NCBI RefSeq assembly: GCF_029227915.1
Contig: NC_079881.1
Coordinates: forward strand, 9,238,001 to 9,302,000
Source of the DNA: Hydractinia symbiolongicarpus
Lineage: Eukaryota; Cnidaria; Hydrozoa; Anthoathecata; Hydractiniidae
Reading direction: 5' to 3'
DNA length: 64,000 nucleotides
In this document: one piece after another, positions 19,438 to 64,000 of the stretch
Layout: each line of letters starts with the position of its first letter
How positions within the stretch are numbered: the first letter of the stretch is position 1
Position numbers and translations under genes: made by a program
The notes under the pieces: model-generated
What the model saw: only the letters and a program-made list of their open reading frames with translations
What the model was told of the DNA's origin: nothing
Database searches by the model: none

Positions 19438-19518
<81 letters not shown>

Positions 19519-23800: not shown

Positions 23801-23870
23801 TAACTGCACGAATTTTTGCATAAATTACAGAAATTACGTCAATTTAATTATTATTATTATTATTATTATA
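23801..23870. repeat. Second copy of the TAACTGCACG... (TTA)n sequence
   Basis: Matches 19392-19440 (one or two substitutions), followed by a shorter TTA run. It abuts the broken 5' side of the anoctamin gene. Read on the minus strand, the junction offers a CAG followed by an open frame of isoleucine codons leading into the anoctamin exon, so an artificial splice acceptor is conceivable. Confidence 0.85.
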
Positions 23871-29489: not shown

Positions 29490-30722
29490 ATCACTGAGAC
29501 AAGTTTTCTGTAATAGGATTGATGGTGTTCCACCGGTCGGGATTGTAGCATTGATTGACAAAAATCGTTTAAGACAAGTAAATATGAGATAAAATGTTGA
29601 AAGAAGTAGTAGGATTGTATTAGTCGACTAGTTCATCAGAAACTGACTTTTCGTAACAGGATTGATGGTTTCAAACCGGGCGAGATTGTTACATGATTGA
29701 CCAAAATCACTTACGACAAGTATATACGAGATAAAATGATGAACAAAATAGCAGGATTATATTAGTCCATTAGTCTCTACTACTAAAACTGACTTTCCGT
29801 AATAGGATTGATGGCTTCACACCAGGTGGGGTTGTTACATGTTTGACCAAAATCACTTACGACAAGTATATACGAGATAAAATGATGAATAAAAATAGCA
29901 GGACTGTATTAGTCCATTAGTCTCTACTACTAAAACTGACTTTCCGTAATAGGATTGATGGCTTCACACCAGGTGGGGTTGTTACATGTTTGACAAAAAT
30001 CACTTACGACAAGTATATACGAGATAAAATGATGAATAAAAATAGCAGGACTGTATTAGTCCATTAGTCTCTACTTCTGAAACTGACCTTCCGTAATAGG
30101 ATTGATGGTTTCAAACCGGGCGGGGTTGTTACATGTATGACCAAAATCGCTTACGACAAGTAAATACGAGATAAAATGATGAATAAAAATAGCAGGACTG
30201 TATTGGTCCACTAGTCTGTACTACTGAAATTGACTTTTCGAAATAGGATTGGCGGTTATAAAGGGGGCGATATTGTAACATGTTTGACCAAAATCGTTTA
30301 CGACATGTAAATACGAGATAAAATGATGAAAAAAATAGTAGGATTGTATTAGTCTACCAGTCTCTACTACTGAAACTGACTTTCCGTAACAGAATTGATG
30401 GTTTCAAACCGGGCGGGATTGTAGCATGTTTGACCAAAATCACTTACGACAAGTAAATACGAGATAAAATGATGAAAGAAATAGCGGGATTGTATTAGTC
30501 GACCAGTCTGTGGTACTGAAACTGACTTCCCGTAACAGAATTGATGGTTTCAAACCGGGCGGGATTGTAGCATGTTTGACCAAAATCGTTTACGACAAGT
30601 AAATACGAGATAAAATGATGAAAAAATTAGTCCATTGGTCTCTACTACTGAAACTGACTTTTCGAAATAGGATTGACGGTTTTAAACGGGGCGGGATAAC
30701 ATTATATTAGTCGACTAGTTTG
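29490..30722. repeat. Satellite array, about 9 units of about 146 bp
   Basis: Units begin near 29518, 29661, 29806, 29953, 30100, 30246, 30392, 30538 and 30670, judged by the repeated GGATTGATGG(T/C)TT phrase. Each holds a CGGGCGGGATTGT core, CAAAATC, TACGACAAGTAAATACGAGA, AAAATGATGAA and TATTAGTC elements. Several neighbours are nearly identical; the outer ones are more diverged and the last is shorter. A related phrase in opposite orientation occurs near 42190. Confidence 0.92.

Positions 30723-42254: not shown

Positions 42255-42332
<78 letters not shown>
42255..42332. repeat. (TTA)n microsatellite
   Basis: About 26 uninterrupted TTA units. Immediately to the right is GGATGTTCCTATTTGAAAAC and then AGGATAGCCTGACATCC. 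This adjacency is seen in mirror image at 61.4 kb. Confidence 0.95.
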
Positions 42333-43924
42333 GGATGTTCCTATTTGAAAACAGGATAGCCTGACATCCTATGTATAACGACAACCGGCATGCGTTGGAT
42401 CAATTATATTATTGTTGTTGCGCGAAATTTGTATTATTGGGATTAGATCCAAAAAAAAAAATATATTTTTTTATTCCACAAAATATTGATTTCCTTTAAC
42501 TTAAAAATAGTGATAATAATTGATTCAATAATTATTATTGGTAATACGTTGATTCAATTATTATTTCTAACCGTGGAAACAAATTGCCGTTTGACGATAT
42601 CGGATAGCCTGCCATCTCTAAATTTTTTCACATATGGCAAGATAAAATGTTTACTGTATTGGGTATCAGCAGTTTTGCGCCGGAATCGTGGAAAAGTTCT
42701 TCGCAAGTCAATAGACAGGGAAAGTCTTTGTTAGCCCCTTGATTATTGTTTTCTTGCGCTATAGGTCATAACTTGTAATATGAAACCTATGTTTTTATAA
42801 AATTACCGATCAATTTTATTTTGTGTATTTTTTAATGCAACGATGCGGTTCCTTTTTATTAGGACACCCCTGTGTAAAAACCCGCATGAATTTGCCCTTC
42901 ACATATATATCCCTGCATTTTATGCTTGCTTGTCCGCCTGTCATCGTGAACAAAGAAATTACTGATCGGATAGTCTAAAATAACGCAGTGGTGCAACCGT
43001 TTCTAACACAGATAGACAACGTATATTATTGTTATAGAGAGGATTTCGGTTTGGCGATTAATGATTTTCCATTTTACTAAGACCCAGTATAAACGACTTA
43101 TTTTCAAGTTAAGGAGAGAAAATGTTCCCAAGTACTACAGGAACGAGAAACCGTTCGGAATATGCTGTTCAATTATGAAAACTTCAATTGACACGATACT
43201 TATCCTATTTGGTATGGCAAGTCGCTGCGCCGGAATTATTTAAATCAGTAAAATGCTCGGATTAAGTGAAGTCGACTTAAAGTCTAGACCTTCTCTTGCA
43301 ACATGATAATGCAAATATGTTGAAGAACACAAAATAAGCAATTTAAAAACAGTACAACAAATTAAAAACATAATGTGTTTAAAAGTACACGTTTTTAATG
43401 AGAAACCAAGCACATTTTACTACTACATCTTATTCACTACCCTTATTAAAGCTTCCTTCGGAAGAAACCACTTAAGAATTGTTTGCACTAACATCATGAA
43501 ATAATTAAGTAAGTACTAGACTTTTTGCTTGATTTCTTATAAAAAAATAAGTAGCAAATCAAATATGTTACGTAATAAATGAACAAGGTGAAATATTACA
43601 ACAAAAGTAATCTTAACAATCGTAACAAAAGACTTTACGAACAAAACAACTAAACGATCAAATGTTTTTACTTCTGTTTCATCTTAATTGTGTTCTAAAT
43701 AAAAAGATAATATATAAAAATCATAACTGTTTTATGTTTTGTTAAACCTGTTCATGCCGGAGCTAAGGGGAAAGGGGGCGGAGTGGGGGCAAGATACTCT
43801 AACTACATAAAATGGCACCTAAGCTGCGCACGAAAATTCAACTACATACCCGAATAATACTAAGGAAGATAACACGCCCTAACACAGTGATTATCTGAAT
43901 ATAATCTCTATCATAATTAATACC
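42333..43924. other. Repeat fragments with the GGATAGCCTG(A/C)CATC core; no gene
   Basis: The core occurs at 42355-42370 and as CGGATAGCCTGCCATCTC near 42600. The remainder to 43924 is AT-rich without supported exons. The frames at 42486-42734 and 43061-43243 lie partly in this repeat and have no homology that I recognise. Confidence 0.4.
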
Positions 43925-44025
43925 CGTATACGTCTGTTTGTCACGTAAAATGATATGACGAATTGCGGTAAATAAAGGGCATGCGAACCCGTGGATTATT
44001 CCACGGGCCACCGATTAGTATTTTC
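43925..44025 (-). repeat. Single unit of the CCGTGG..CCACGG dispersed repeat family
   Basis: Read on the minus strand: CGGTGGCCCGTGGAATAATC, CACGGGTTCG, CCTTTATTTACCGCAATTCG, GTGACAAACAGACGTATACG. This follows the same order as the plus-strand unit at 54115-54240. Confidence 0.65.
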
Positions 44026-44254
44026 TAAATAACAATGGATCTTTAAAAACATACATCTTAACAAAATATGTAGACTGACTCCGGCATGCATAGGGTAAAA
44101 ATACACTGCTGCCTGAGGAGGAGAGGATGAAATTACGTTTTGGAGTAGAAAAAACCTGTACGAACATACTTTGGAGAACAAAAAAAATCATTTTGCTGGT
44201 CACAGCAGTGACGTAATTATTAGTTACATTTTTAGCGGAGGAGATTAGCATAAA

Positions 44255-46974
44255 CTATGGACTTCTTAGCTTTGCTGGATGTGAGCAAGCTGTTACTGTT
44301 TGTAGTTGCTAGAATTACATTTTCTTATCGATAATCGACATTCGTTGTTGGAATTTTATTTCACAGTTTTCACAAAAAGGTGAAGAGCTAAATTATATTA
44401 AAAGTGAAGGAGTTTTAGAACGATGTTAAAATAGCGAAAGGTATAACTAAAAATTGAAATTTTAGGGATATTCCTTTGAATCAATAAGATTGACGCAGTA
44501 TCTGCTAAATTTGATAAACTAATACTTAGCATTATCAAAAACAAACTATAAGCATAAATAAACTATAAAGCTATATGTATTACGAAACTCACCTTTTTTT
44601 CTTTGTAGATTTTTCTCTCGTAATTTATTCGAGTGCGCAACTGAACGAAGGTGTACTTCTCGAACAACCCACATGATTCTAGATGAGTCCTCACTCTGTT
44701 TTCATCTAAGCTTCCACCTTTAATTAGTTCTTTTCCATGCATTAAAATTAATTTTAAATCATGTTTCGGAAACAGTGATTTTCGCTTCATGACACACGGT
44801 GGTGTTTTTTTCGGTGATATATGACGCAACTTGTCATAAACCTGTCTAGGTGACGCAGTTAGAGTTGGTACAGCTGCGCATTTTTGTTTTACCTCCGAGA
44901 AACTCACATCATTATTGACAGGAAACACCTCTTTCAGCTCTTTAATCTCTTGTTCTGACCACACTTTTCTTTTGCTTTCTTGTCTAGCTGCTTCGTTTGA
45001 CTTGTCAGCTTGAAAAAGTTCTTTAACTGCTGTTGACCCAACCAAAGAAGACTTCTCCATATTTCTTAGGAAATAGTGTTCCTTTGCTGTCCTCATGCTG
45101 TGTGTCATCAACGTGGCGGCATCTTTTAAATTACAGCTTTCCGATTCTCTTAATGCTGTGCTAACAGACTTCCGAATTATATTTGCTGAAAGATTTTTTG
45201 GAGGACATTTATCATTAAAATTACCAACTCTGTCCCACTGAAGATGAAGACGTTTACTAATGTCCCCAGGTGACACTTTCTTTCCTGACCAACTTAAAAA
45301 TACATACTCGCATTTTGGTAAAGTTTGTGGTCTGGCAAATTTCACGTATGTTGTCAAGAAATCAAATTCTTCTTCATTAAGGATAATTTTAGCTGGGCCA
45401 TAGGTGTCAACTGTTTTATGGTCCCAAACATTCATTACAAATTTTCCGTCAAGCTTCGCTGCCCTATCATATTCATTCATTGTGAGGTTGGCCGTCACAC
45501 CAGATCTCTGTGCAATTGATAAATGAATCACAGCATATAAATAATCTCTTACGGCGCAATACTCCGTCTGAGTTAGATTATATCCTATGTCTTCCTTTAA
45601 AAGTTTTAGTATGGCTTCACCCTTTTTTGCTCCCTTGTTACTGTTAAGGTATCTTCCTACTTGCTCCTGATCAATGAGCATTTCTCGATCGTCTGTCATC
45701 CGCTTAAATTTTACCAATTTCTCTTGCACTTTAAAATTTTTTCTCCACTGCCGCAATTTTGAAATAAACGTTGTAATGTCTTGATGACTGCTGTTCATTA
45801 CTTCTTTTTCCTCAGCGATCAAAAATTCGCAAAAGTCTATTAGACTATATAAATACTTTTTGATACTGGTTGGTTTTTTTTCCGTTTCTTGACAGTGCTT
45901 TGTAATGTATTTATCCCGAAAATCATTACCTCCATTTCTGAAAACAACGCTTAGGTCATCCTTTACTTCCATAACACGAAATATACGTCGTAATTCACTC
46001 GCAGTCAGGTAAACTGCCCTACGTTTTCTCTGTCTATCAGGGCCGATCATATAACATATGAAGTCTGTAACCAAAGTTTCCACATTACTAGCAAGGTTAT
46101 ATATTACAGATTCGTTCTCTTCATCGACAGGCTCAAATTCACTTTCCTCACTTTCACTTTCCTCACCAAAAGAACTAGATTCGTTTCTGGTGTTGCATGC
46201 AGTGTTTTCAACAACCATTTTTGGTCTTAGTCGTAGATTATGAAATTCGCACGCATTGCCTTGGCGATCATTATTCACTGGAATCTGAACAGATTGCACG
46301 AAACTTTCCTCCACGTCATTTTCGTTCGCCTTTTGTTGTAACCGTTTAATAGGTGTAGTTGAAGTTGATACAGTGCTTTCCAATGTTCTATTTAAAAATA
46401 CTTTCGAGACAGCCTTTCTTGGAGATTCGGAAACATTGCCTTGTATAAAAGGGGCGTCCACCTTGGGTGCTTGTTTCAGCAAATGATAATATAAAGGACC
46501 TTTTGGGATATTGTGTTGTTTCATGAGGTGATCAGGTAGGTTTGTCCTCACCATCATGCAATTTTTAACAGGACACATTCTCTTGCGATGATAGTTTGGA
46601 GTTTTTTTATCAATTTTACTTAACTTTTCGTTGCCTGTTTTTGGTGTGCTACTAAAAAACTGACTGGAGGCTGCTGCAGCACTTTCCCAGCTCCACTTAT
46701 GCTTTTGCCTTAAATGTCTTGTGATGTAAGTCTGTTCAACATCACACACAGGGCATTTAAACTTTCGATTGGTCCTTTTCTTCACTACCTGTTTCATTTT
46801 GTTCTCTTTTTTTTCTTCTTTTGACCCAAGCAGCAGGTCAATATTGTCATGAGTATAAGATTTACTTGAATCGTCATAAACCTTGGTATTACAAAAAACC
46901 GATTTGAGAATTCTTCTTAGTGGTATCTTCATTAGAGTTTCCAGCCTGCAATTTTCCTTTCTTTGAATCAGTAA
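44255..46974 (-). CDS. C2H2 fingers + tyrosine recombinase domain + SANT-like segment
   Basis: One long minus-strand open frame (to an ATG at 47025) ends in a GTGAGT donor after KEKK (44593). A final in-phase exon at 44308-44255 adds 17 residues. Numbered from that ATG: two C2H2 fingers at 91-109 (CPVCDVEQTYITRHLRQKH) and 151-171 (CPVKNCMMVRTNLPDHLMKQ, then H), an acidic stretch at 288-304, then a tyrosine-recombinase (phage integrase-type) region at about 375-665. Its catalytic set is R507 (AQRSG), K537 (DHKT), R618 (NIIRKS), H642 (THSMRTA) and Y651 (EHYF), spaced as in the family; the usual His of HxxR is Asn615. A SANT/Myb-like segment follows at 688-735 (VWSEQEIKELKEVF). This type of recombinase occurs in Crypton-like transposons and in host genes made from them. 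An acceptor CAG before 46974 is in phase with the SET-DBF4 exon upstream, so it is probably the 3' part of that gene. Alternatively it is a separate gene starting at 47025. Confidence 0.8.
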
Positions 46975-46986
46975 CTGCAAAGTCGA

Positions 46987-47731
46987 CCTAGATAATGATG
47001 ACATTATTATTAAAAGACTTGTCAAGCACCCATACCAACGTCTTTAATAAGCGACTATAGGAAAGGCGCAATCTTCAATAAGCGTCATAATTCTCTGAGT
47101 ACACATTTTTTTCGCTCCTGACCATTATAATTCGATTAGATTGACTTACAAGTGAATTTTGGTTACCGTAATGCTTCGAATATATTGTCCTCTTTCCTCG
47201 AATAGACTTTCTCCTTTTCAGTCATTTTTCAAATAAACGCTCCCTCTACTAGACGCCCCTTCGAACAAGCCCCTCCCTCATAAGGGGGAGTTTATTCGAG
47301 GCGATAGTAAAAGTAAGTATATGAAAAAATCAATAACTGTTATCGTTTTGGTATTTTAATTGAAATGAAATTTTAATGGTTCTATTATAATATAAACACA
47401 TCGGTAAAATAAGGAAATTTCTATAAATAACGCAATCCAGCTGCTGCATCCCGCTTCAATATGGAACCAAAGCGTGTGAGAGAATGGAAAAATGATATTG
47501 AGCAAATTAACGCCCCCTGTTTTAAACGCCCCCCTTGAATAGACGCGCCCAAAAAATGTCAAAAAATTTCATAAAAAAATGCTGACATCAGCACAAATTT
47601 ATTGCTGCTGTTTTGTTTCTTTCATGCATACCAAAGAACGCGGAGGTAGTGACAAGGGAATAGGGTTGAACATGCTTGAAAAAAACACCACTTATAAACA
47701 AAATTATTTTTAGAAAAAAAAATGAGCATAC
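46987..47731 (-). other. Intron between the SET-DBF4 and recombinase parts, with repeat remnant
   Basis: Donor GTATGC at 47731, acceptors CTAG at 46987 and TTTGCAG at 46975. The intron contains AATAAACGCTCCCTCTACTA, GACGCCCC and CGCCCCCCTTGAATAGACGC phrases plus GGGGGAGTTTATTCGAGGCG. These are ends and body of a dispersed element seen only here in the window. Confidence 0.55.
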
Positions 47732-50700
47732 CTTTTCCCTCCATTCTCTGATTTTTGCGTGTAACAAAAACATTTTCTTTTGAGCGGTAACCATTCCCCT
47801 CTGCACATGGTCTTTAAAGGTGTCCCCATCCTTAAACGGGTTATCTTTTGATTCCAGGGACGTTAAAAATTCTTTAAAAAAGGTTTCTGTTTTGATTTTA
47901 CTCCAATGTGTAACAACTGAAAACAGCGTAATTACGGCATCGGGTAAAATAACTTTGATTATATAATCCCTGAGTCCTATTTTGTCACGAAGGCTATCTT
48001 TTACTCGTTCCTGTAGCAGTAAGAATGTTTCTTCTGGTAAGAGCTGAAGAAGTTCTGTCCCGTTCAAATTCCTTTTATTTTCGCCACCCTTTGCGAAAGC
48101 ATTATGGCGCCAGCAATCCCTTCTGCCACTCACGAGATCAGTAACATACTGATCATTTATTATTTCTTTGATTAACTTTTCAGAGAAATTGCTAATAGTC
48201 TCAACTAATACTTCCTCCGGATCTGTTTCAGTACAAGATGCTAGATCGAAATTTTTATTACATATTTCGATCGATTTATCCAATGTTGCAAAATTATTGT
48301 TGTTAGCCACGAATTGCTGATGAATTTTCGACGTTCTATGTTTCTCAAGACTGGTAAATGTTACAGCACACATTTCGCAAAATTTTTTTTTGGTCTCTTC
48401 TTCTTTCCTAAATGTTGAGATTGCTGCGGTTTGGTTCTGTTCTTCGTCAATTAATTGAACAACAAAATTATTGTACACTATTGGTCTAAAACGTTTATCT
48501 TTGTCTTCAATTTTACAAAAAGGTGGTTTCAACTCTTCGACTTTTACGATACTTGGGAGACTTTCGATAATTTTTCGTTTGCCGATCAAGCTTTTTGTAT
48601 TTTTTTTCTCCGGGGTTGGCGGAATTGAGTTATCTTCTGTCTTTTTAAATTCCCCTTTCGCAGACAAAATTTCTCCCAAAACATTGGACGCAGTAGCCGC
48701 TTTTTGTTTTTTTAATTTTTCTTGAACTTCTAAACTGAGCTTCAAAGGCTTCAAATATTTAGAACTTTTCCGCCATGGTAAATACTTTCCTTTATCACCG
48801 TAATCGTATCGAAGCTCTTCGTTTACGTCGATATCTTTACTTGCGACTAAGCATAGGTGTGGCATTTCACCATCATGCTTTATTACCATTCGGCAGTTCG
48901 AAAAACATTGCGGTGAGTCGTTGACGTATCTTGCCATGCAGTTAGATTTTGTTGCATCGACGCAAAGTTTTTTATTTTTGTCAGAGAAATAAAAAAGGTA
49001 TCTGGATGAAATATTTTCTCCGTACTCTTTTGCGAGATCATCTGCTTCCGTCGCACTAACTAAACTTCCTTTGTAGCTGAGTAAAGCATCTCCGTTTTTG
49101 AAGCACTTTGTTGCAAAGACACCATAGCCTGATAAAAAGAATTAGAAAAATTAAACAGCTTCTATACCAGATCAATAGATATAAACTTGCGTATCATAAT
49201 TCCTCTTTTAACGCGTTACATTATGAAAAACATTTTTAACACGACACTATAACCTAATTAGTAGGTATCCAATGAAATAATCTACGAGGTTGCCCGTCCT
49301 TTAATTGTTACGCTATTTCATGAGCCTGTAGCAATTTTTTTCTTGTGGCAATACAGACAGAAAAATGGCTATTAATAATATGAAGTAGTTGTTAGATTTT
49401 AAACGAATTCACAGGTACACCACTGCATAGATTTTTGCCATCATTCATATTTCCAACTTAGGTATTTTATGTTTTTTTGTCCCTACGCCAGGATGAAGTA
49501 TTTGAATTACTCTATTACGAGCCGCACGCAACCATTTCGAGTAAACAGACGACAGCTATTATTACAGAGACTATTCTGTAACGCGTAGAAAAATTCACGT
49601 GGTTGCCCGCCTTAATATAGCACAACTTTTTTCTTGCGGCCAGACACAGACAGATTACAACTATTCTTTATAATAATAGCTCTTATCCGTTTGTTTGTTT
49701 GTTTGTAATGGTTTTGACCACGCACAAAGTCTTGGAACTACAAAAATATATGTAATATACTTTTATCAGCCTTTTCGAGAATTTATTATTTCGCGCACAA
49801 TTTTGTAGATATTTGCTAAAAATATTAAACTTAATCGAGTGCCTGAGGGTGATCCGACACCAGTCGGTTAGGGCGCAATATTTTCCTCGATATCATTCCT
49901 ATTTTTTCGTATGGTGTGGGATTTTCGTGCCATTTTATCTATTGTTTTCGCGGTCAAAACAACGGTACTATTTGGATTAGAGAAGTCATTTTCACTCACT
50001 CAGCATGAATGTTTGAGATAAATATTTCCATCAGTTGCTACCTAGTGACAATTTCTCGTCGATGATGATTAGTTGTTATCGACGAAAGTAACACAGTTGG
50101 GCAGGTTCACGCGTGTCGGTTGCTATTGATTGACATATTAACTCATTCTATTTAAACAAAGGCGGTCGCATATAGTTACTAGTACCGTTTCACACCGTAT
50201 TAGTAACTATATTGATACTTTTATATTGATATTTAGCGCCATAATTGAGCCTTTTATTAGAGCGCGATTAAAAAATTTAAAAATTCATGCAAGTTTTTAA
50301 TAAGATATAGCGTTTATTTGGTGCATTGTTTGCTCGGCTAAAAAATCCCAAAAATTTTTTTAGGGCGAACAAGGACGTTATTCCGCAAAATCCTTAACGT
50401 GAATCCTTGGCGTGAATAAGAGATAAAAAAAATAAGGCTCAATTATAGAACTCCAGCGACGAAAGTCATTGTTATATCAAAACATTCGAAACAGATACAC
50501 GGGTCTTTTAAAGAATGGGCGTGGCATTCCACCGACTGGATGTTTTTAAACTTTTTTGGGTCGGCTACTAATTGTTACTAAGTTAAAGTATGTCCGAAGG
50601 TCATTTCCCCCTCCTTATCCTCTTCCCATCTCCTGCCTGACCTGAATAGTGTTAAAGAAAAAATCAAATATTAAGTACTCACCAATTACTGTGTCAATTT

Positions 50701-51193
50701 GATGCAAAGTAAATCCGTGGCCATCTTCAAGGGCTTCCTCCCAATCGCGTACCAAAAATCGATTATCCTGCATGAAACATGAATTATTATGTTTTTTACT
50801 TTTTCATATAAAGCCTAGAACATTTTCAACATACTTTCGGTATTTTATATTCCTTTTATTTTCAAGGTTACCTCTGTGTAATGTTACAGACTTTAAAAAC
50901 TGGATGATGACACAAAAGTTACTTAGATGTATGTAACTTTATTACCTTTTCCCAATTAGGAGGTTTTGAGGTAAACAACCAAAGATCATATTAAAATATC
51001 TCGTGTATCAATGTAATGTGCAGTAAAAGTATATAATAGTAACTTTTGGAGCAACATATATTGTGGGAGTGAAATTCCTGCACACGGGTGAGAACGCAGT
51101 GACTTTGGGTTGGTAATTATTTGCATAATTAGAATGTAAGATATTATAACTTACACGGTTTCTGAGTTCATATGCTTTCTTTTCAGTATCCAT
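47732..51193 (-). CDS. KMT5A-like SET domain fused to DBF4 motifs M and C
   Basis: Minus-strand exons: 51193-51155 (ATG, 13 codons), 50767-50683, 49128-47732; all GT/AG with agreeing phases (0, 1, 0). The product (507 residues to the last donor) has a KMT5A/SETD8-like SET domain at about 30-153: GHGFTL, GYGVFATKCFKNGDALLSYK, LCVDATKSNCMARYVNDS, NCRMVIKHDG, MPHLCLVASKDIDVNEELRY and DYGD. The YDYG motif is intact, but the conserved NH pair is Asn111-Asp112. At 239-260 LKPPFCKIEDKDKRFRPIVY matches DBF4 motif M (CDC7 binding). At 292-311 C-x2-C-x9-H-x5-H (FCEMCAVTFTSLEKH) is the DBF4-type zinc finger with the exact family spacing. KMT5A monomethylates H4K20, and DBF4 activates CDC7 at origins; the BRCT-like N-terminus of normal DBF4 is replaced by SET. 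The last donor leads in phase to the recombinase exon (46974), giving about 1318 aa in total. A minisatellite begins about 100 bases upstream of the ATG. Confidence 0.85.
49255..49700 (+). repeat. Two degenerate units of the CCGTGG..CCACGG dispersed repeat family
   Basis: Within the second intron of the SET-DBF4 gene. Unit 1 has GGTTGCCCGTCCTTTA, TTTCTTGTGGCAATACAGACAG and GGCTATTAATAATATG. Unit 2 has ACGACAGCTATTATTACAGA, AAAAATTCACGTGGTTGCCC and TTTTCTTGCGGCCAGACACA. Confidence 0.6.
49701..50682. other. Intron of the SET-DBF4 gene; nothing further recognised
   Basis: AT-rich intronic sequence between exons 2 and 3. No exon or ordered repeat supported. Confidence 0.45.
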
Positions 51194-51284
51194 TGTTTTC
51201 GTTCACAATGTCAAGGTGCTAAAAGAAGAAGATGCAGAGTAATTATTTGTGTTGACAGGCTAATCCGTTGAACTTTCCTTAGTA

Positions 51285-51965
51285 ATATATTCGGATAGCC
51301 TGAGATTTTTTCGCGGATTGTTGTTATATCTCGGCAAACTCGTACCCAGACTGATAAATTTTAATCTTAATAATAAAATCGGATACCCTAACATCTTCAC
51401 GCACATTGCTCTTCTGACTCGACCAGCTCGTACCCAGACTGATAAACTTTTAACTTCAATAATAAAATCGGATAGTCTGACATCTTTTTGCGCATTGTTC
51501 TTATATCTTCGCAAACTCGCACCCAGACTGATAAACTTTTAACCTCAATAATAAAATCGGATAGTCGGACATCTTCACGCACATTGTTCTTTTGACTCGA
51601 CAAACTCGTACCCAGACTGATAAACTTTTAATCTTAATAATAAAATCGGATAGCCTGACATCTTTTTGCGCATTGTTCTTATATCTCCGCAAACTCGTAC
51701 CCAGACTGATAAACTTTTAAACTTAATAATAAAATCGGATAGCCTGACATCTTTTTGCGCATTGTTCTTATATCTCCGCAAACTCGTACCCAGACTGATA
51801 AACTTTTAAACTTAATAATAAAATCGGATAGCCTGACATCTTTTTGCGCATTGTTCTTATATCTCCGCAAACTTGCACCCAGACTGATAAACTTTTACAC
51901 TTAATAATAAAATCGAATAGCCTGACATTTTTTGCCCTATTAATCTTATATCTCCACATCAGATT
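51285..51965. repeat. Minisatellite array, about 8 units of about 89 bp
   Basis: Each unit has the core CGGATAGCCTGACATCTTTT, then GCGCATTGTTCTTATAT or a variant, CTCCGCAAACTCGTACCCAG, ACTGATAAACTTTTAA and AATAATAAAAT. Cores fall near 51293, 51370, 51468, 51557, 51647, 51737, 51826 and 51914; the three central units are almost identical. The near multiple-of-three unit makes serial short open frames on the minus strand that are not genes. The array lies directly upstream of the SET-DBF4 gene. Confidence 0.95.
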
Positions 51966-52479
51966 CACTAAGATTAAAATTCGGGCAATGGCTTTAATGT
52001 CCCACTATAAAGTATAATTTATAATTCCCCCGTTAAAGGTTAAAAGCCTCACAGGCTTTCTGTGCTCTCAGGCTATGTATCTTACAAATAAATGCACACG
52101 TAGACACACAAAGACACAAAATACTTCTTACTCAAAAATACTGTGCTTCCACTTTATATACTTCTAAAACGTTGATGATGGTAATGTACTTTCAAAATAT
52201 TAATAATATTTAATTTTACGCCAATATCGTGATCACTGTTCGCCTTTTATAAACATCCCCCAATATCAATTACAATTTTTCACAATTTTGTTATATGATT
52301 TTTAAATACCTAATCAAAGTTAACGTTATGGATGATCTTATGACTCAGATGTTTTGCAGCTCTTTGTCCACCTTGATCTTTTCTTATGGTGGTGTTTTGA
52401 AAATTATAACTGCTTGAATAGCAACATTATTAGTCACCACATACAAAACAACGTATTGAAACTTATTTTGACCATTTAA
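51966..52479. other. No supported gene
   Basis: AT-rich spacer between a minisatellite and a LINE 3' end. Confidence 0.4.
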
Positions 52480-53212
52480 GTCGTTATTATATATATTATA
52501 TATGCACTGTGCAAACTCGGGCATTATCTTTCTCCATCCATGGTAGTGTCTCTATACTTCGCACTATTTTACTAACATATGTCTTACGCTTGTCAAGTCT
52601 CGGGTCAGAACTCATCCTATAAAACCCAACTAGTTTTAAATCTACAAAAAAGAGCTATGTGCAAAATAACCTTTTCGATTTAATTCTCATTCTGCTCCTC
52701 TGTTTCCGGATCTTAAAATTCTTTCTTTTTTTGATGATGTCAAGATGTCAACATTATTTTTTTTCATAAGTTAATCAATCACAAACTACCTTTTACTCTT
52801 CTAAATAATTTTATAATTACATTTAATGCTTGCAATCTTCCAAATAATCGTGCTAATCCGGGCTCAATACGTTTGCTTAGAGTGAGTACAGTCACATTTG
52901 GAAATAAGTATCAATCCATCGTCTCCTTTTTTAACAGTTTTTAGAAGGTAATATGTCTACGCTGTCGTTGGGTCATCTAAAGTATCTGGTCAAGTTTTAT
53001 TTTTTTTCATCATATAGTAGTTTTAACATTTAATCTTTTTATTGTTGCATATATCGATCGTTATTTATGAGTACATAAAGTTTGTAATTATAATATTTTT
53101 CAAAGTTGTAATTTGGTTTGGTGGTCATTCCTACATATTAGGTATTATCCCATCGGAATGGTCTCCGGTCTATTAGGACAAATAAATAAATGAATACTTA
53201 CTTACTTTCTTA
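52480..53212 (+). mobile_element. 3' end of a LINE reverse transcriptase, degraded
   Basis: Plus-strand frames read LNLQKRAMCKITFS near 52638, HSAPLFPDLKILSFFDD near 52688 and, in another frame, LGHLKYLVKFYFF near 52970. This order (RA(I/M)xxI, then (T/S)APLFxxLxILxxxD, then LKxxLK) is the C-terminal part of LINE-type reverse transcriptases. An AT-rich tail with CCCATCGGAATGGTCTCCGG and AAATAAATAAATGAATA follows, as in CR1/L2-like elements. Stops and frameshifts show it is dead and 5'-truncated. Confidence 0.75.
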
Positions 53213-53350
53213 CTTAATTCAGGATAGTCTGGTATTTACACTAAATTCCCTTTTAATCTTAATACTAAAATCGGATAGCCTGACATATTTTTTAATATTT
53301 CTCTTATAACTCAACAAACTCGGTACACAGACTTACAATGTTTTATTATT
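53213..53350. repeat. Isolated unit of the GGATAGCCTGACAT minisatellite family
   Basis: AGGATAGTCTGGTATTTACA and then CGGATAGCCTGACATATTTT, followed by ACTCAACAAACTCGGTACAC and AGACT, as in the arrays at 51.3 and 58.1 kb. Confidence 0.8.
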
Positions 53351-54114
53351 TCTAACAGATTTGTGTTTCCATTATCAAAAAGTGAAGAAGAGCCCTGGGG
53401 AGGAGGTTGACATTTTGTGTTGTGATTAGCAATATGATTTTACTAATTCTGCGTTAGCGCGGCGAGTTGCCGTAATTGATCACCGGGGTTAAAACAGAAA
53501 ATAAAGTATGATAATGCTACGGCTGCGAATTTCGCAAACTAGAGACTTTTGATTTCGATGATTGATTTTGTTTCATCTACAAATATTGAGAGAATATTAT
53601 AGTTGTTCATATCTAGGTCTCGATATTTTGTATAGCTATTTGTAAAGTATATATGTAAAAATACCCTGGCCAGAGTTAGCATTTTGTATGTTAAATTTTG
53701 ACTATTATTGGTCCTTAGTAGTGTAGTAAGTAGAACGTACTAGATAGTTGAATCCTTAAGTCAATAACATTTTTACCTTCACAAGACATTTCGTCATACT
53801 AAGAAGTCATGACTTACCCAACTATTACAAAACAACTTTATCAATGGCGTTATATTGTGTCAAATATATCTAGTTTGACGGTCTGTTTTCTATTCCCATC
53901 AAGAAGCTGAAGTACCTTTTTTTCGCAGATTACTTTTAGCACATTTTGGGAGCTTTTAATTCTGATACCTTTCAAAACTAAGATTGTGTTATTGTTGTGT
54001 ACTACTAATTCTATTTAAACCGGACCGTGATATGTAGAAATTTGTCGGATACTTCTTAACCAACATTTGACCTAAAATCACAACGACAACCTCAGTTTCT
54101 TTGATTTTTTTACT
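53351..54114. other. No supported gene
   Basis: AT-rich spacer, no exon recognised. Confidence 0.4.
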
Positions 54115-54240
54115 ATACTAGTCGGTAACCCGTGGGTAAATCCCCCAACTCATCCGTCTTTTATTTACCGCATTATATGTTTCGCTACTGCGGTTATCAT
54201 TTTGCGTGACAAACAGACGTATACAGCTATTATAAAGAAG
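54115..54240 (+). repeat. Single unit of the CCGTGG..CCACGG dispersed repeat family
   Basis: ACTAGTCGGTAACCCGTGGG, then TTTATTTACCGCATTATATG, GCGTGACAAACAGACGTATA and CAGCTATTATAAAGAA. Confidence 0.7.
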
Positions 54241-54360
54241 TAAGGGACCTTTAAACGCCGGGATCAGCCACAAGTAGCTGTGTGACCCATTGTGGAACGC
54301 CCAGTGGAGTACTTAATAAGACCCGTAGAGTTAAGCGCTTCAGTGTAGGAATGAAGTAAA
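54241..54360. other. GC-richer block of unknown nature
   Basis: About 110 bases (AACGCCGGGATCAGCCACAA ... GTACTTAATAAGACCCGTAG) are clearly richer in G and C than the surroundings. I compared it mentally with 5S rRNA and tRNA box A/B patterns and it fits neither. It could be a SINE fragment. Confidence 0.25.
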
Positions 54361-55050
54361 GCACACACAAAATTATGGTGTTTTATTTTCCCACAATTTT
54401 AGCTGAAATAAAAACACAGTTTACAACCCGTTGGTACACCGTCATGGAAAAAACAGTTGACCAACCTTTTATATTTTTCAAAATATACTCAAAGCTGAGC
54501 AGTTAGGTAAAAAAATGCCGCGCATAAAATTTACCGCAACTTCGGTTAAATAGAAACACAGGAAATAGCCTGTTGTTAACAATGGGATGAGCGCTTGGCA
54601 CAGGTATACTGTCTCGAACATGCTATATATGCAAAATATATACCGTTTTCCAAAAAATTATATCCTAACTTCGGTTTAAATAAAAACACAGGAAACATTC
54701 CGTCGTTACTCCGTCTAGCTAAAAAATCACTCTGCAATTTTTCTTTGTGGAATATGTTTTCATGACAGTTATAAAAGTTGTAGTTACCTAACTGCATTTA
54801 GCATCATAAAAATGATAAAAATTATTGATTAAGAAGTTTTTTGTAGTCAAACTGCAATTGGCTACTTTCACTTTTTAGCCAGAGGAAGCTGAAGAGCTAG
54901 CCACAATCCCAACATAAAAATAAATATTGTTATACCACATAAGATAAGAACTTTAAGAGAATAATAAGACTAGCTATAGCAGAATGTTACCTCGTTATCT
55001 ATGTTTGTAGCTAAAACCCTAATATTGTTATGTTTAAGATTTATAAATTG
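54361..55050. other. No supported gene; local duplicated phrase
   Basis: AACTTCGGTTAAATAGAAACACAGGAAA near 54538 recurs as AACTTCGGTTTAAATAAAAACACAGGAAA near 54667, so a diverged unit of about 130 bases is present twice. No exon is supported. Confidence 0.45.
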
Positions 55051-55518
55051 GAGTCTGCTAAATTTCGTGCCCTGCGTGTCTACGTACATACATGCTTTAC
55101 GAGCTTTTGCGGCTACATGGCTACGTGCCTCAGCTTTTCACGTGCCTACATGCCTTAATTTTTTTGTGATAATTTCTTTTGTTGGATACTCCCCGTTGTT
55201 GCTAAAGAATCCAGTAGTAAGCGTTGTTAGTATAGTCTGAATCAATGGAAAATCACGTGTTTTTTGTTGTTGTTGATACTTCAATGGGAACTTCACAATC
55301 TTTTTAAAAGCCTTGAACCACAAAATTTCATCTTTCGCAAAAATTATTTCCCTTAATTTCCCAATTATTTCGAATCGTGAAGGTTTATTAATGAAATACC
55401 AATTACCGCAGAAGCACTAGGGCACGCAAGTACATAAAGCACGTAGAGAAACTAAGGCGCGTAGGCACATAAAGCACGTAACCACGAGGGCACGTAAGGC
55501 ACGTACTTTAGCAGACTC
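55051..55518. mobile_element. Foldback element with long inverted arms
   Basis: Left end GAGTCTGCTAAATTTCGTGC and right end, in reverse complement, GAGTCTGCTAAAGTACGTGC. The arms extend about 100 bases each and are built of repeated GCACGTA/TACGTGC words (for example GGCTACGTGCCTCAGC on the left and AAGGCACGTACTTTAGC on the right). The middle is AT-rich and unrelated. No transposase frame. I did not find a convincing target duplication. Confidence 0.75.
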
Positions 55519-55654
55519 TATACATGGCTAGAGAACGTGATGATATACAATCGCGATCGATATCTCTAATACTTTTTTCCCCGTCCTTTTATTCATCGCA
55601 ATCTATTTTAAGGTTTTTTGGAAAGAAGTAAGTTTAGTAACAAGCACATACTAC

Positions 55655-55840
55655 TATCAAAATATCCTTTTTTTTTTTATTTTTTCTGTTCCTCGTTTTC
55701 GGCTAAACGAGTACTTTATCTCGAACTTTAGAAAGTCTTCGACGCTCGATAACTCGACTATCCTTAATCTTGAACTTTCGACGTCCTAAACTTTTTTATC
55801 AGTTCCCTGGGAGTTTGAGTCGACCGTATTTATTTTAACA
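55655..55840. repeat. Fragment related to the CAGTTA... TIR element family
   Basis: Repeated CTCGAACTTT, GATAACTCGACTATCCTTAA and CTTGAACTTTCG words and a CCCTGGGAGTTTGAGTCGAC end recall the interior and end of the element at 16827-17278, in decayed form. Confidence 0.4.
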
Positions 55841-56049
55841 CGTGGTATTAAGAAGAAAAAAAGTTTAAAAGGAGACCGACAAACCTGACAGCACCACTTT
55901 CAAACCAAAATGGCTTTCGTTACATGTTTTCGGTTTTTTTGGATTCTACCTTCTGTAAACAAAATTCGCAAAAATCGCGTTCCGCAAGAATTTTCCGAAA
56001 TAAAGCTGCGGCGCTTTTTTATTTCGAACAAAATACGGCTATTATTAAA

Positions 56050-56860
56050 GAGACTAGTCGTTAGCCCGTGGAAAAATCCACATGCTCGCCCATCCTTTAT
56101 ATTTACCAGTCGCAACAAATTGGATAAAAATATATCGCATTTGATATTCGTGTTTCCGTAGCACGATTTTCTAACTCAGCGGGGCGTTTGAGCATATACA
56201 GAAAAAATACGGCTATTATTAAAGAGACTAGTCGTTGCCCGTAGAAAAAACCACGGGTTCGCCCGTCATTTATATTTACCCGCCGCCAAAAGGTAGATGA
56301 AAATATATAGCATTTGATATTCGTGTTTCCGCAACATCATTTTCTAACTCAGCGGGGGGTCCGCGCAGAGACAGACAAACGACGGCTATTATTATAGAGA
56401 CTAGTCGTTAACCCGTGGAAAAATCAACGGGGTCGCCCGTTGCGTTCGCTCGTCCTTAAAATTTACCCGTCGCAACAAAGTGGATAAAAAAATATCACAT
56501 TTGATATTCGTGCGCATTTTAAAAATTTCGTGTTTCCGTTACGGGACGCCGCTTTCGCGGACACACAGACAGACGACGGCTATTGTTCAAGAGACTAGTT
56601 GTTAACCCGTGAAAAAATCCACGGGGTCGCACGTCCTTTAAACTTAACCGTCGCAACAAAGTGGATAATAATATATCGCATTTGATATTCGTGTTTTCGT
56701 AATACGTCTATCTAACTCAGCGGGGGTTCGTCGCAGAGACAGACAAAATACGGCTAGACTAGTCAGTAGTCGGTTCGGCCGTCCTCAAAATATATCGCAT
56801 TTGGTGTTTCTTACCACAACGTTTTCGTGTGGACAGACAGACCGTTATTAATATAGGGAG
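56050..56860 (+). repeat. Tandem array of the CCGTGG..CCACGG family, 4-5 units
   Basis: Units start at about 56050, 56222, 56396, 56588 and 56755 with AGAGACTAGTCGTTAACCCG. They contain the hairpin CCGTGGAAAAATCCACGG, CGCCCGTCCTT, AAAGTGGATAAAAATATATC, GCATTTGATATTCGTGTTTC, CTCAGCGGGGGGTCCGCGCA and GACAGACAAACGACGGCTAT. Unit length is about 170-190 bp. One unit has a small internal duplication of TTCGTG; the last unit is truncated. Confidence 0.9.
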
Positions 56861-58009
56861 CAAAGCCTTAGCCTGGTGAGCACAGCCTTTGATCTGAAAA
56901 GAAATAGTCACCATGAATTGAATTGTAGTCTCTAATAAAAGGCATTAAACATATTCGTGCCATGTCGGGAACACCATTTGACCTAAAAAGATGCTGACAA
57001 GCTTAGTTGATCTGAAAGTTTTTTAGTATTAAACACTGGCATTAAACAAATAGTTTTGTTACATTAGTTGTATATACCTACTATATCTTTGTTACTCGAT
57101 AAAAATCCTGTATTTTTTTCGAAAATTCTTATCATCTTTCCTTAATGTCTAAATTCTGAAACTTAGCTAAAATATAGCTAATACAAAAGTATTTTTCAAA
57201 CTGATTTCTTTCCTTTGGTCTAAAAGCATCTCATAACAACTTTAATAATTCTGTTTGTACTCAAATTATTCATTTTTGATATTTACGAAATAGAGCCCCG
57301 TAAGCTCAATCATTGCGTTATGAATCACCACGCTTTAACTGATGGAATTTTTTGTCTGTCTTTTATATACATGTTGACCGCTTCAGTTAAGTGCAAGGAA
57401 GTTATTTCATAGTAAAAGAAATTCCGCATTGCTACATCTAGTGTGCGTCAGCGAGTAACATAGTTTCATTTTTGTCAGGCAACCCAAAATTCTCTGTTTA
57501 CACGTCCTTGCCACGCCAAAAAATTGCATTACATTGCGTTGTAAAAACATAAATAAAAGTGCCTTTTTACTCAAGAAGTAAAAATTAACCAAATCAAATG
57601 CACAATATTTATTAAGACAAGTGAGAGTATGACAACAATTTTCCGAAATTTTAAAAACGTATAAACTGTCTAACTAACTAAAGTTTTAAACAAAAACCTT
57701 CAAATATAGCTACTGAAATTCACAAAAATAAAAAGCATTAAAACCGAGCTAGCTGAAAAATGTACTGTTTCTTAGACTGTTTTGGTTTCGCCATCATTTT
57801 TTTCACTCGCTAGAAATCGTAGTTTATTCTTGACGTCACGTGGTTTATGCTTACTGAACACGGCGTCCTTTTAAGAAAAATTTGGGTTAGGCAGAGAAAT
57901 CTTATAATTATTACAACCCTGGGTTTTGGGTTGTAAAACGGTCACGACCCTGATACAGACCTGTTCAGCTGGTCTGTACCAGAGTCATGCTCGTACCGAC
58001 GTCTGAATG
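56861..58009. other. No supported gene
   Basis: AT-rich spacer. No exon, no ordered repeat recognised. Confidence 0.4.
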
Positions 58010-58560
58010 TTAGAAAAAATACAGATGCCCTGCTTGATTTTTTCACAAACTCGTACCCAGACCAATATCATGTTAATCTTAGTAATAAAGTCGGATAGCC
58101 TAACATCTTTTCGTGCCCTGACATAAAGAATTCTATTTTAAATAACTCTTTTGGCGCATTGCTCTTATGACTCGACAAACTCGTACCCAGACCGATAAAA
58201 TTTTCAACTCAGTAATAAATTCGGATAGCCTGACATCTTATCGCATATTACTCTTATAACTCGACAAACTCGTACTCAGACCGACGACATTTTAATCCTA
58301 GTAATAAATACGGATAGCCTGACATTTTTTCGCACATTGCTTGTATATCTCAGTAAACTCGTACCCAAACTGAGAGAATTCTATTTTAAGTAATAAATTC
58401 GGATAGCCTGACATCTTTTCGCATATTAATCTTACAACTCGACAAACTTGTACCCAGACCGATAACATTTTCAACTCACTAATAAATTCGGATAGCCTGC
58501 TAAGTTTTTGCACATTGCTTTTATAACTCAGCAAAATCGTACCCTGACTGTTTTGCTAAT
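58010..58560. repeat. Second GGATAGCCTGACATC minisatellite array, about 5 units
   Basis: Cores CGGATAGCCT(G/A)ACATC near 58092, 58213, 58312, 58402 and 58488, each followed by CTTATAACTCGACAAACTCG and TACCCAGACCGATAACATTTT variants. It is the same family as 51285-51965 but more diverged, with one larger interval. Confidence 0.92.
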
Positions 58561-61240
58561 ATAATTAAAAACTAGTCCCAGGCTGACATTGCTTCAATTC
58601 CAATACTAATTTTAGATCTTCTTGTTTTTTAATGGTGTCGCAAGGCCTGTAAAATTTTGTGTATAGTCTGTATATTAGTAATTTTTTATTATACAGACGC
58701 TGCTTTTAACAAATAATAAAAGTTCTATCGGGAGTGTGGTATAAAGAAAATACATAATCATTCCTTTAAAGTGATAAAAGTTCAATAAACTATAAAATAC
58801 ATTGTAAGAGTTTTTTCTTTCTTCTCTTCTTCTTCTTTTGCAGATATGACTTTCTCGTAAAACAGCATTAAGTTTTTCTAAAATATAACATCATCTATCA
58901 AAATCGGGACAAAACTAAACACTATGCAGTGACGCAGTTTGTATGTTTCATGGTGTCATATAAAAAGAGTTTTACTAAATTAACATGTTATAATATATTT
59001 ATACGTTATACATACATTGGACCTATAAAATAGACTCCATTTCTATAAATACATAAATTACATTGGTATACTTGTGCTGTGATTAGAGAGCTTCAATTTA
59101 CACTAACGTGCAACCATTTACCTGGATGCATAAACATGTGCTAAAAAATCACATTGAAAGGTGATTATTGTTTTTAACTACTCCACAAAGCATTTTGTGT
59201 GCACTCTTACACAGGTGCAGTAAGTGAAAAAAAAGTTACTCCATACTTGAAATATCGATAATCCCCAGATTGCACATATTCTTGTCTTTTTTCATTTCAG
59301 TGCTTCCCATCAGGTAATATTATGAACTCTAAAGTGAAAGTGTTTAGAAATATAGGAGGTTTAAAAAATTTTTTAACCATGCTTTCACAGAAAATTGCCC
59401 ACAAAAAACGACTCTATTAAGGACACAATCAATCCAATTTAGCAATTTAATTTTCAAATTGTCAGTTTTCTTAATCATTGCTTAGTGTGATATATACAAC
59501 TACCTTTTTGCTAATTAGAAGAAAGCATGCATCCTATTTTTAGATAAATAGTGTTGATGAGAAAATTTGAAAAATTAGATAGATCGTGTAATACTCCCAA
59601 GTATTGTGAAGAAACACTGCTACACATGCAATAATAGGAAAGATACGCATAAAGAATTTCAGAAATTACTTATAAACACTTTTTGTTATAAATCATTTTT
59701 TAAGAATATATATATATAAGCATTTTATAAGTATTTGTAAGTTCTTGTTAGATTATCTAGGTAAAATGTTCCAGACAGTTGTCAAATATTTGGAATAATA
59801 TTTTTACAAGCACTACAAGAATATGTTAAAAAAATAATTCGAAATAAGAAAATTCTAGCAATTTTAATCATTATTTACTTTGATCTAAATTGCTAGAACT
59901 TTATTATTTTGCTGCTGCTGGTACAATTGTAAATACTATACAGACTCAAGCACCTAATGCTTTTAGAAGGACAACCTGCAATTAAAAATTAACATGGTTA
60001 AACACATGAACGTAATACTTCACAGAATTAGTCCAAAAAGACAAACAAAGAAAGTTAAACATGTTCTTAGATATTTCTTTCTCCTTTCACTTTTCCAAGT
60101 AAAAGGACAAAAAAATTTCAAACGTAAACAATTACTAATAAAACCTTAAAAAACACCCTGCTTTTCTACCAGTAGAAGAAATAGTACTAGCAAATCCTAT
60201 ATTATGCGTAATCAAAGCTTATCAAGGTCTAGAATTACTGGACAAACTTCCCATAATTTATAAACAGACACAAAATGATAATATTTTAACAATATCTACG
60301 AAGTTTCTGTTACTGTTTTACTGTCACAGTATACAAATTGTTTTGACAAAGTAAAACATTTTATCACTTAAATTACTACTGAGTTGAAACTTTTATCCTA
60401 AAGTAAAATAACTTAAGAATGTAGTAAAAAATTGACAAGAAGAATGCTCAAAAAAATTAAGAATATTTTGCCTATGCTCAGTTTAAATATATCTGGAACT
60501 TCATCGCAAACTGCGTTTTGACAAGCTTTCGAAAAATCTTATTATGACTAAATAATGAACAAATAAGTGTGATTTATTCAACAAAATGATGTGATCAATG
60601 ACTATCATGTGCCCACATGATAGTCAAAGCCCTGAATAACATATTATCGTAATTATATTTATTGTGGTTAGAATTTTCTAATTTTTCCAGATCACAGTCA
60701 TGAAAAAGAACAGCTAGCTAAAGCCACACAGCACACCTTTCGACTATATAGCTATTTAGATTGCTAACCTTGTTTAATAAAGTTAAATTTCTTTAAAGCA
60801 CAGAGCTGTGCTAGCTAGCTACAGACAGGAGGGTCATTAGCTATATATTGCTTTTTTAACACAAGTGTCAAGTTATCACAACACCAGGCACCTATGAAGT
60901 TACACACTCAAACTAACCATAGCAATAAGTCTTGTATTTATAACTTTAATATATATATTTAATAGTACCATAACAACAACTCAATATGTTTGTTTAGATA
61001 ATCACGTAATTAGGACTACAGCTAGCTAGCTACAGCTATTAGTTTAGAAAAACTTTAGTCTCCGCCTACTACAGTAAACCACTTCACAGTAACATATTAA
61101 AATTAACGATTACATTCTGTATAAACAAACAAAAAACACAACAGCTAGCTAATCATATAGGTTATGCTTAGCTTATTAAACAAGCATCCTCTTACAGAGA
61201 TGGTCTGCCAGACTGTCAACCATTATTAAACACAAGTGGA
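58561..61240. other. Long AT-rich stretch without a supported gene
   Basis: No exon recognised on either strand. It contains a perfect hairpin at 60599-60626 and several AGCTAGCTA words near 60710-61150. Confidence 0.4.
60599..60626. repeat. Perfect 13+13 bp hairpin, 2-base loop
   Basis: TGACTATCATGTG, CC, CACATGATAGTCA. Confidence 0.95.
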
Positions 61241-61258
61241 AATGTTAACGGCGGCCGA

Positions 61259-61410
61259 CAAGGATGGCAGGCTATCCTATGAAGATGGCAGGCTATCCTA
61301 TGAGGATGGCAGGCTATCCTATGAGATGGCAGGCTATCCTACGAGATGGCAGGCTATCCTATGAAGATGGCAGGCTATCCGAAAAAGATGTCAGGCTATC
61401 CTAAATCAAA
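61259..61410. repeat. Seven tandem units of AAGATGGCAGGCTATCCTATG
   Basis: Units of 20-22 bases, the last two ending GGCTATCCGAAA and GTCAGGCTATCCTA. The unit is the reverse complement of the GGATAGCCTG(A/C)CATC core found in the minisatellites at 42.4, 51.3, 53.2 and 58.1 kb. It is followed by ATTAGGAACATCC and the TTA microsatellite. Confidence 0.95.
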
Positions 61411-61420
61411 TTAGGAACAT

Positions 61421-61620
<200 letters not shown>

Positions 61621-64000
61621 TAAAACATGTTTATTGTAAACAAATGTGTTGGTTTATAACGTAATAAATATATATTTATTTAACGTTCTAAAATTTCGTG
61701 GTTTTCGTTTACGCCCAATTTTATTTCATTTCAATGCGTTCAATGTCGTTGTGCCAATTTTTAAAGTCTTACCCTTTCGCACTCACTTTAAGCTCCCACA
61801 CTCTTTCCCGTAAAAATAAATTTCCTTCCTACGCCACTGGTTTATAATTTGGTCCTCTTTTGATTTTGTGCTTTTTTCTGTATCTTTCTAATTCGAATAT
61901 TATCAGAGGGAGAGTATAGCTAATGGGCAGTCACTCTTTATTGATCAAAATGAAAAAACATAAATCGTGTAAAAGCTGGGTGACATAAAATACAGTGAGT
62001 AAAAAAGTTTGATCGGCCAAAATTTGGTCACTTTTCAAGAAAGAAGCTTAAAGAGCAAATTAAAACCATTGTTGTCTATGTACAGGTTGCTGCAGTGTTC
62101 TTTGATGGAATTTAAATTATAAAATCAGCCGTTCCCCTTTAACCTGGTCCCCAGGGTTTTTGCCGGCCATCAAGTAAGCGTTAGCGGCCCTAGGCAGGGA
62201 CGAGGATGGTTCCCCTATGTCATTTTCGCTTAAATCATAACAACAGTGCATTATTTCTCGAATTGGACGATAATTTTAATTTCTTTTAACCTTGCTTAAA
62301 ATTGACCACACCCTTGACCACACCCTGACACTGCTTTCATCTTTCCCCGTAAATTACCAATGTGCACGGAGTTAGTATAATAAAGCTGAGTGCCGAGGGA
62401 CGAGAAAATGGTACAACCAGTCAGTGATATTTACAAAAATTGGTCAAAGATTAGATCTGCTTGTGTGGCACTCAGGCCTGGATCCCTGTGTGTGTGAAGC
62501 ACAGAGTGATTTTTGGACACATCCAAACAATACAACGGAGGAGGGAGGGAGTGTTTAGACCGTTCAGTTCATGGGAACGATTTTGTCAAGCACTGGCTAA
62601 AAGAAGACAACGAAGTATTGTTGATATTCTCCCGTGAGTATTTTCTCTCATTTAAAATTTATTTCGTACAAAAATAGTCATTTATTTAATCTATCACTAA
62701 GCACATGCTGGAAATGATAAAAGTTGCCCAGCAACAGCCGCTTCAATTTACTTTTGTGGTTAACTATTCCATTTTCTTCATAAATGTTTTACAACGTGAC
62801 GAAGAAGCTATCAATATTGAAAAGGCTGAAATGACAACTGACAAACACAACTAAACTAATCTCATATTTATAACACTACAAAAACATACCCAACGAAGGA
62901 GGGCTTATTGCCAAACAAAAATAGAAGAATACACTATGTCACTGAAAAATACACTATGTCACTGAAGAATAAAAAAAATACCGAGTCTTACTCTCGAAAC
63001 AAGGCGTGCGAAAATGTTAATCATATTCTCGATTTGCGGTGTATATAAAAAAGATGGACAACCTTGAATATCAGAGACAAACGAATATATTTGCAGGTTT
63101 ACAGACACTGGAGACGAAGTTGACATAAAAGTAGTGATAAATAAATAAAGCAAATAAGAAAGGTGTAGCAAAACATTAAAAATGTGTAAAAAAAGTTCAG
63201 AGACAAAAATTAATTTATATACATTCTTAATTCACGAAAACACGTACAAATTTTTTAAAAGAAATAACTCAAAAAACATTAAATCGTGCCGCTAAAAACG
63301 CTCATTCTAAACTCCAACCGAGTCAACCGGTCCATCGTCCGGTTCACGATGCGTGTGAGTTTTCTCCACATCTGGTCTTGGCTTTCGCTTTCCAGATTTC
63401 TCTTTGTGGTTTTTCTCTGCTTCTGATGCGATGAAATTTTCACGCTTCACTTTCAATTCCAAGGCTGCAAGAAAAAGTTACGGTGGACGTTTAAAAATAT
63501 GATTACAAGACAGAGCTAGCCCTGCAAGCGAAAAAGCTAAACGAGGTTCATACACATACCAGACATGCTAGCACAGCACACAGCTTTATTTGCGACTGAC
63601 AACAATACAGAATCAACATGGCGCATATCGTAAAAGTTTTCACAAACTTCATACCCAGTGTTTTACTGAAGGAAGTGGGCTATTCAATTTCCCAGGTTGA
63701 TACTTGAACGTTTATTAGAATCTCCACAAGTTTTTCACTCAGCCGTTTATTCAAAGAGATTTTTCAAGCAGGCGTTTATTAAATTTCCTAGGCTTTTGTT
63801 CAGGCGTTTATTCTACGCACTGCTTATTTAGTCTGGGCGTTACATGACAACTAAAATATGCAGTTAAAATTACGTAAACACGATGCGAATAAAAAAATCT
63901 CACTTTTCGGCACATCTGGAATGAGGTACGCCACAACAAACGTGACAGCCAACACGAAAGCCTGGAATGCTATGATAAAAGACAATCGCGCAGCAAGAAT
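61621..64000. repeat. Segmental duplication, copy 2 (partner at 19.5-21.9 kb)
   Basis: Matches 19518-21904 with an offset falling from 42104 to 42096 through small indels. It continues past the right edge. Confidence 0.95.
63307..64000 (-). CDS. Anoctamin 3' end, second copy (partial, runs off the edge)
   Basis: The last exon is 63464-63307, with the same stop and the same acceptor as copy 1. The preceding exon has its donor at 63904 and continues beyond 64000. The parts seen encode the last membrane segment and the Lys/Glu-rich tail. No inactivating change is visible in these exons, so this may be the parental full-length gene, with copy 1 being the truncated duplicate. Confidence 0.85.

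Follow-up and report, generated by a model that had tools for sequence, protein, structure and literature searches.

The fusion gene predicted on the minus strand of the 64-kb window (the whole stretch of Hydractinia DNA analysed) is real, and it is part of a mobile element rather than a domesticated host gene. The element extends over 19,090 bp (42333..61422), as delimited by its collinearity with the C8 and C1 copies described below, and it is probably a 19-kb giant DNA transposon whose sole recognisable gene encodes a fusion recombinase, moving and replicating by the scheme proposed further on.

The gene model is built on two long minus-strand frames (47588–49141 and 44563–47043), to which two short 5' exons were added in phase; only four stop-to-stop frames of at least 130 aa are present in the 64-kb window. 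Exon 1 carries the ATG (51155..51193), the SET region begins in exon 2 (50683..50767), exon 3 (47732..49128) holds the SET domain, the DBF4 motifs M and C and a conserved helical part, and exon 4 (44593..46974) holds the C2H2 fingers, the tyrosine recombinase (YR) and a C-terminal extension. Joined through phase-matched splice sites, the four predicted minus-strand exons give a stop-free protein of 1301 aa with the order KMT5A-like SET, DBF4 motifs M and C, two C2H2 fingers, YR with R-K-R-H-Y and C-terminal extension. This confirms the fusion of exons with agreeing phases proposed in the preliminary description; its last exon and the SANT-like label given to the C-terminal segment were not confirmed. 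The acceptor of exon 4 is uncertain (46974, with 46881 or 46788 as alternatives), and an AlphaFold model of exon 3 was uninformative (pLDDT 33).

The SET domain match (48797..49128, minus strand) was recovered both by Pfam (E=3.5e-15) and by the SET search of the genome. KMT5A chains occupy the first 14 PDB rows for this part (E 9.1e-21 to 7.1e-19, the next row being at 2.9e-10), so that KMT5A is its closest relative among solved structures, as had been suggested. The likeness to KMT5A/SETD8, the H4K20 monomethyltransferase, lies in the SET sequence and includes the YDYGD motif. However, the domain is C-terminal in KMT5A and N-terminal in the fusion protein, where it is fused to the DBF4 part and the YR, and the NHS motif of KMT5A is replaced by NDS, which speaks against an active SET domain. 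The NDS form also occurs in a second family of the same genome (family 2, see below), and four mollusc and sea-cucumber proteins with the same kind of SET show VND at this motif. These proteins (P0005–P0008, from mussel, abalone and sea cucumber) also share the motif LPWRK. One of them, P0006 of Mytilus coruscus, shows weak similarity to Phage_integrase (E 0.042) N-terminal of the SET domain, and P0007 carries a zf-CXXC alongside it. On the basis of these two proteins the SET domain may have joined other mobile recombinases too, although the gene model of P0006 could be a merger. A third KMT5A-like SET was seen at L026 (280–600; 46% over 63 aa, motif CNDSP); within the 7.5 kb examined there, no YR was detected.

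Downstream of the SET domain, alignment with human DBF4 places motif M (PFCKIEDKDKRFRP; 48482..48523, minus strand), followed by the zinc-finger motif C (zf-DBF; 48266..48391, minus strand; Pfam E=5.3e-12). Motif M is weak when taken alone; the order M then C agrees with that of human DBF4, the activator of CDC7 kinase, and the presence of both motifs is thereby upheld. The PFCKIED stretch of motif M is invariant between the fusion protein and P0001, a relative from a read-assembly source. In contrast to DBF4, where motif N is a BRCT domain, no BRCT profile was listed at E<=1 in either long ORF, and the DBF4 part sits inside a recombinase protein.

Exon 4 contains two C2H2-like fingers (46513..46755, minus strand), whose ligands are seen in the alignment and bear out the earlier assignment, although Pfam gave nothing above the cut-off for them. 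The core-binding and catalytic parts of the YR follow (45031..46089, minus strand), as recognised by alignment and predicted fold. The catalytic R, K, R, H and Y are invariant in an alignment of five sequences; the box II His is absent, a point against a recombinase-driven transposon. A Foldseek search with the predicted fold of exon 4, a model of low overall confidence, returned YRs at all ranks from 1 to 21. Superposition of this model was poor over the whole length (rmsd 9–21 Å), the best domain-level fit being with XerD (2.8 Å over 123 residues). The catalytic residues and the Foldseek ranks agree on a tyrosine recombinase. Profile searches of the kind suggested in the preliminary description matched the SET and zf-DBF parts; the YR match was weak by profile and is supported by the fold search. 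No relatives of the YR were found in IMG/VR and GTDB contigs.

A closer inspection of the element revealed terminal inverted repeats of 36 bp, on the left at 42333..42368 (plus strand), with the same tip in 7/7 copies examined, and on the right at 61387..61422 (minus strand), present in the three long copies. These repeats are imperfect, the first 10 and last 16 nt matching the reverse complement of the right end; at one end (TTA)n is followed by GGATGTTCCTATTTGAAAACAGGATAGCCTGACATC, of which the other end has a near-inverted copy. The 64-kb window has 14 exact copies of GGATAGCCTGMCATC, every one of them within the element: seven are subterminal and inverted near the right end (61263..61401, minus strand), two lie on the plus strand at 42354 and 42602, and five are within 89-bp tandem arrays. 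One such array, which carries the GGATAGCCTGMCATC motif, is located at 51278..51955 and is longer in C1 and C8, and the second lies at 58147..58548. A 173-bp array is also present inside the element (56030–56756), and a 147-bp array of 7.7 copies occurs elsewhere in the window (29505–30630). Besides the fusion gene, 29 ORFs were scanned (24 of the 45 listed and 5 from 42.4–44.3 kb), and no other transposase, DDE domain or cargo gene family reached the cut-off among them, a scan that a multi-exon cargo gene could escape. Rfam gave no match within the window.

When the genome (480.9 Mb in 76 contigs) was searched for SET, at least 112 matches were obtained, 150 of the 232 candidates having been scored. 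Among the matches listed, a SET frame of 517–518 aa is seen in three, namely the window copy, C1 (30402401–30382282) and C8 (15959365–15978231), the latter two being collinear with the window copy at 97.6–99.6%. In all three long copies the shared 19 kb runs from one TTA run to another, and their 2-kb flanks show no mutual similarity at E<=1e-5. Four further copies (L020–L023) lack the stretch with the DBF4 motifs, have broken YR frames and keep the same left tip after TTA. Located at four different places, they share their deletions, are 96.7–99.0% alike and look like a non-autonomous subfamily; besides these, about ten other SET-search matches have the same frame lengths. The long copies are themselves not intact throughout: C8 lacks 46019–44170, that is, half of the YR, and a single-base difference from the window copy, within a stretch of T close to where exon 4 begins, is present in both C1 and C8. 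The joined frame is interrupted by this difference if 46974 is the acceptor and not otherwise; in that case the window copy alone, among the three, has an unbroken frame. Codon changes number 14 replacement and 5 silent between window and C1, and 7 and 5 between window and C8, and neither comparison shows purifying selection between copies. Window and C1 differ at 0.42–0.64% of sites in exons 3 and 4 and at 0.72–1.16% in the non-coding stretches compared. The picture is that of a recently active element, as opposed to one of selection acting on a gene family. Of the two readings first offered, a mobile element with captured replication-control domains is thus favoured by the inverted-repeat ends, the two copies about 98% alike with unrelated flanks, the TTA ends and the deleted subfamily, while a domesticated host factor at this locus is contradicted by the precise ends, the further copies and their unrelated flanks. 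Segmental duplication is likewise rejected on the unrelated flanks, except for the window copy and L023, whose left flanks align over 517 bp with 85% identity. L023 sits at the same TTA run of this flank as the window copy, and their element pieces are 89–97% alike. This is compatible either with separate insertions into a single family of repeats or with a duplication of older date that included the flank.

The window copy is bordered by (TTA)26 on the left (42255..42332) and by (TTA)65 on the right (61423..61617), the latter being the target microsatellite. Each of the ten element ends examined (seven left, three right) adjoins a TTA run, and runs of at least 5 units make up 249 of 74,500 bp in the non-element sequence examined. 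A 2.4-kb repeat at 61542–64000, starting in (TTA)n, recurs at 19438–21904 with 98.8% identity; this second copy has (TTA)26 and no element, and the run to the right of the window copy therefore probably predates the insertion. A shorter run, (TTA)7 at 23848–23868, has the same left flank as the run at 19439 and a different right flank, so that such runs mark places where several repeats meet.

Most likely, the YR excises the element and inserts it at TTA. In the scheme proposed here, the fingers and the C-terminal part would bind the copies of GGATAGCCTGMCATC situated towards each end, and the YR would then join the ends and excise a circle. The joint of this circle, predicted as GGAACATCC-(TTA)n-GGATGTTCC, would consist of a short spacer between two inverted arms, the layout typical of YR core sites; arms of 11–13 bp and a spacer of 6–8 bp are given for YR sites in the accessible part of PMC3212892. 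The circle would recombine with (TTA)n elsewhere, no further target sequence being needed, and a spacer identical to the target would explain the preference for TTA. The roles of the remaining domains are proposed with less certainty. The DBF4 part might recruit CDC7 kinase to the element and the SET part might act there on histone H4 or on some other substrate by modifying it, so that movement would be tied to S phase or replication would be started on the element; with such coupling, a conservative cut-and-join reaction could still gain copies. KMT5A and DBF4-CDC7 act in the licensing and firing of origins, and from this we infer that the recombinase brings both parts to the element and in this way couples its movement with replication; the gene may likewise aim methylation or CDC7 at DNA. 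A bolder version, which we put forward tentatively and consider possible rather than probable, is that the element carries its own replication kit. Its SET domain would license chromatin as KMT5A does at origins and its DBF4 part would bring CDC7, both tethered to the end repeats, so that the circle or the insert would be replicated on command and a conservative recombinase would become a copy-gaining one; such elements would then constitute much of the KMT5A-like genes that are on in hydrozoan and sea urchin embryos.

The SET-DBF4 and finger-YR parts might instead be two neighbouring genes, the YR gene beginning at or near 47025, an outcome that the preliminary description had named as its refutation. 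The uncertain acceptor of exon 4, the poorly conserved linker and three proteins, P0002, P0003 and P0004, whose ORFs comprise the finger-YR part and lack SET and DBF4, would suit such an arrangement. When a very large protein set was searched with the joined protein, 3 of the 7,989 candidates scored were matches. One of these, P0001, shows motif M, zf-DBF, finger, YR and C-terminal part within a single ORF of 1321 aa without a stop, which begins downstream of the SET position; its identity with the fusion protein is 32% in the DBF4 part and 46% in the YR part. The same order recurs in family 2 (L024 1–6800 and L025 1–6570, with L027 and L028; more than 13 kb shared), which has SET (41–49% identical in tblastn pieces), motif M, a zf-DBF-like stretch, one finger, YR (46–55%) and C-terminal part, and the splice sites of the window gene match in phase. 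Judged on these sequences, two separate genes are unlikely, and we give that reading very little weight. Since DBF4 and YR are together in P0001 and the order is kept in family 2, the fusion predates the family of the window element, and copies with the same order, for which the preliminary description had proposed a search, do exist in this genome. Both family 2 copies (L024 and L025) are degenerate: their frames are interrupted, and Pro stands in place of the first catalytic Arg. A 92-bp tandem array of 12.4 copies in family 2 closely resembles the 89-bp arrays of the window element. No ends of this family were found; a (TAA)n run lies inside the shared sequence, by a LINE-like fragment, and was rejected as an end on account of this internal position.

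The main rival to a recombinase-driven transposon is a passenger element moved in trans by a DDE transposase of PIF/Harbinger type, with a 3-bp TWA duplication, the SET-DBF4-YR gene being cargo. PIF/Harbinger elements have inverted repeats starting with GG and TTA at their ends, as does the window element, and TTA is present on both sides of the three long copies, though within (TTA)n runs, inside which a target duplication would not show. However, the 10/10 ends lie at TTA runs and not at single TTA triplets, and neither the DDE transposase nor the Myb partner of PIF/Harbinger was found in the window element, the recombinase being the only gene found and no DDE domain appearing in the 29 ORFs scanned; we regard movement in trans as rather unlikely. 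A further reading takes the copies as a host H4K20-methylation gene family that expanded by segmental duplication and domesticated a YR, in line with the published view of these genes. According to the available part of PMC10368294, Hydractinia has 65 annotated KMT5A-like genes, 22 of them active in early embryos and most with an N-terminal SET; sea urchin has 61, with C-terminal similarity as well (E<3e-43), and the genes are interpreted there as a methyltransferase expansion. Set against this, what the copies have in common is 19 kb with sharply defined ends, between unlike flanks, their non-coding sequence is as alike as their coding sequence within about 2-fold, and the long copies are deleted or broken (C8, and C1 if the acceptor is 46974), which makes a host family highly improbable. 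From architecture and host, part of the reported Hydractinia and sea urchin KMT5A-like genes may be such elements.

Among known systems, the transposon proposed here resembles Cryptons (CryptonA/I of animals, F and S) in being a DNA element with a YR as its only or main enzyme, and a circle intermediate has been proposed for them (PMC3212892, in the part available). The same portion of that source reports terminal repeats and a C-terminal domain as absent from animal Cryptons; the window element encodes a YR and departs from Cryptons in its 36-bp inverted repeats, its (TTA)n target, its 19-kb length and its SET, DBF4 and C2H2 parts. Fungal Starships are likewise large and YR-moved, sometimes with inverted repeats, and have site preferences (PMC12134995, accessible text), but they are found in fungal hosts and carry many cargo genes, whereas no further gene is recognised here in the 29 ORFs scanned. 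Neither DUF3504 (Crypton YR) nor DUF3435 (Starship captain) was listed at E<=1 for the fusion protein and P0001–P0003, YR profiles being insensitive. In a literature search that mostly did not extend to subscription papers, no printed eukaryotic transposon was found with a recombinase fused to a SET of histone-methyltransferase type and a CDC7-activator module.

With this element, animals gain a YR element that is large, ends in inverted repeats and has a target as simple as (TTA)n. It allows a direct test of whether a conservative recombinase gains copies by hijacking the licensing and firing of origins. For Hydractinia itself, the finding suggests that the reported burst of H4K20 methyltransferase genes in early embryos, which has parallels in sea urchin, is at least partly transposon expression, and this alters how the burst is to be interpreted.
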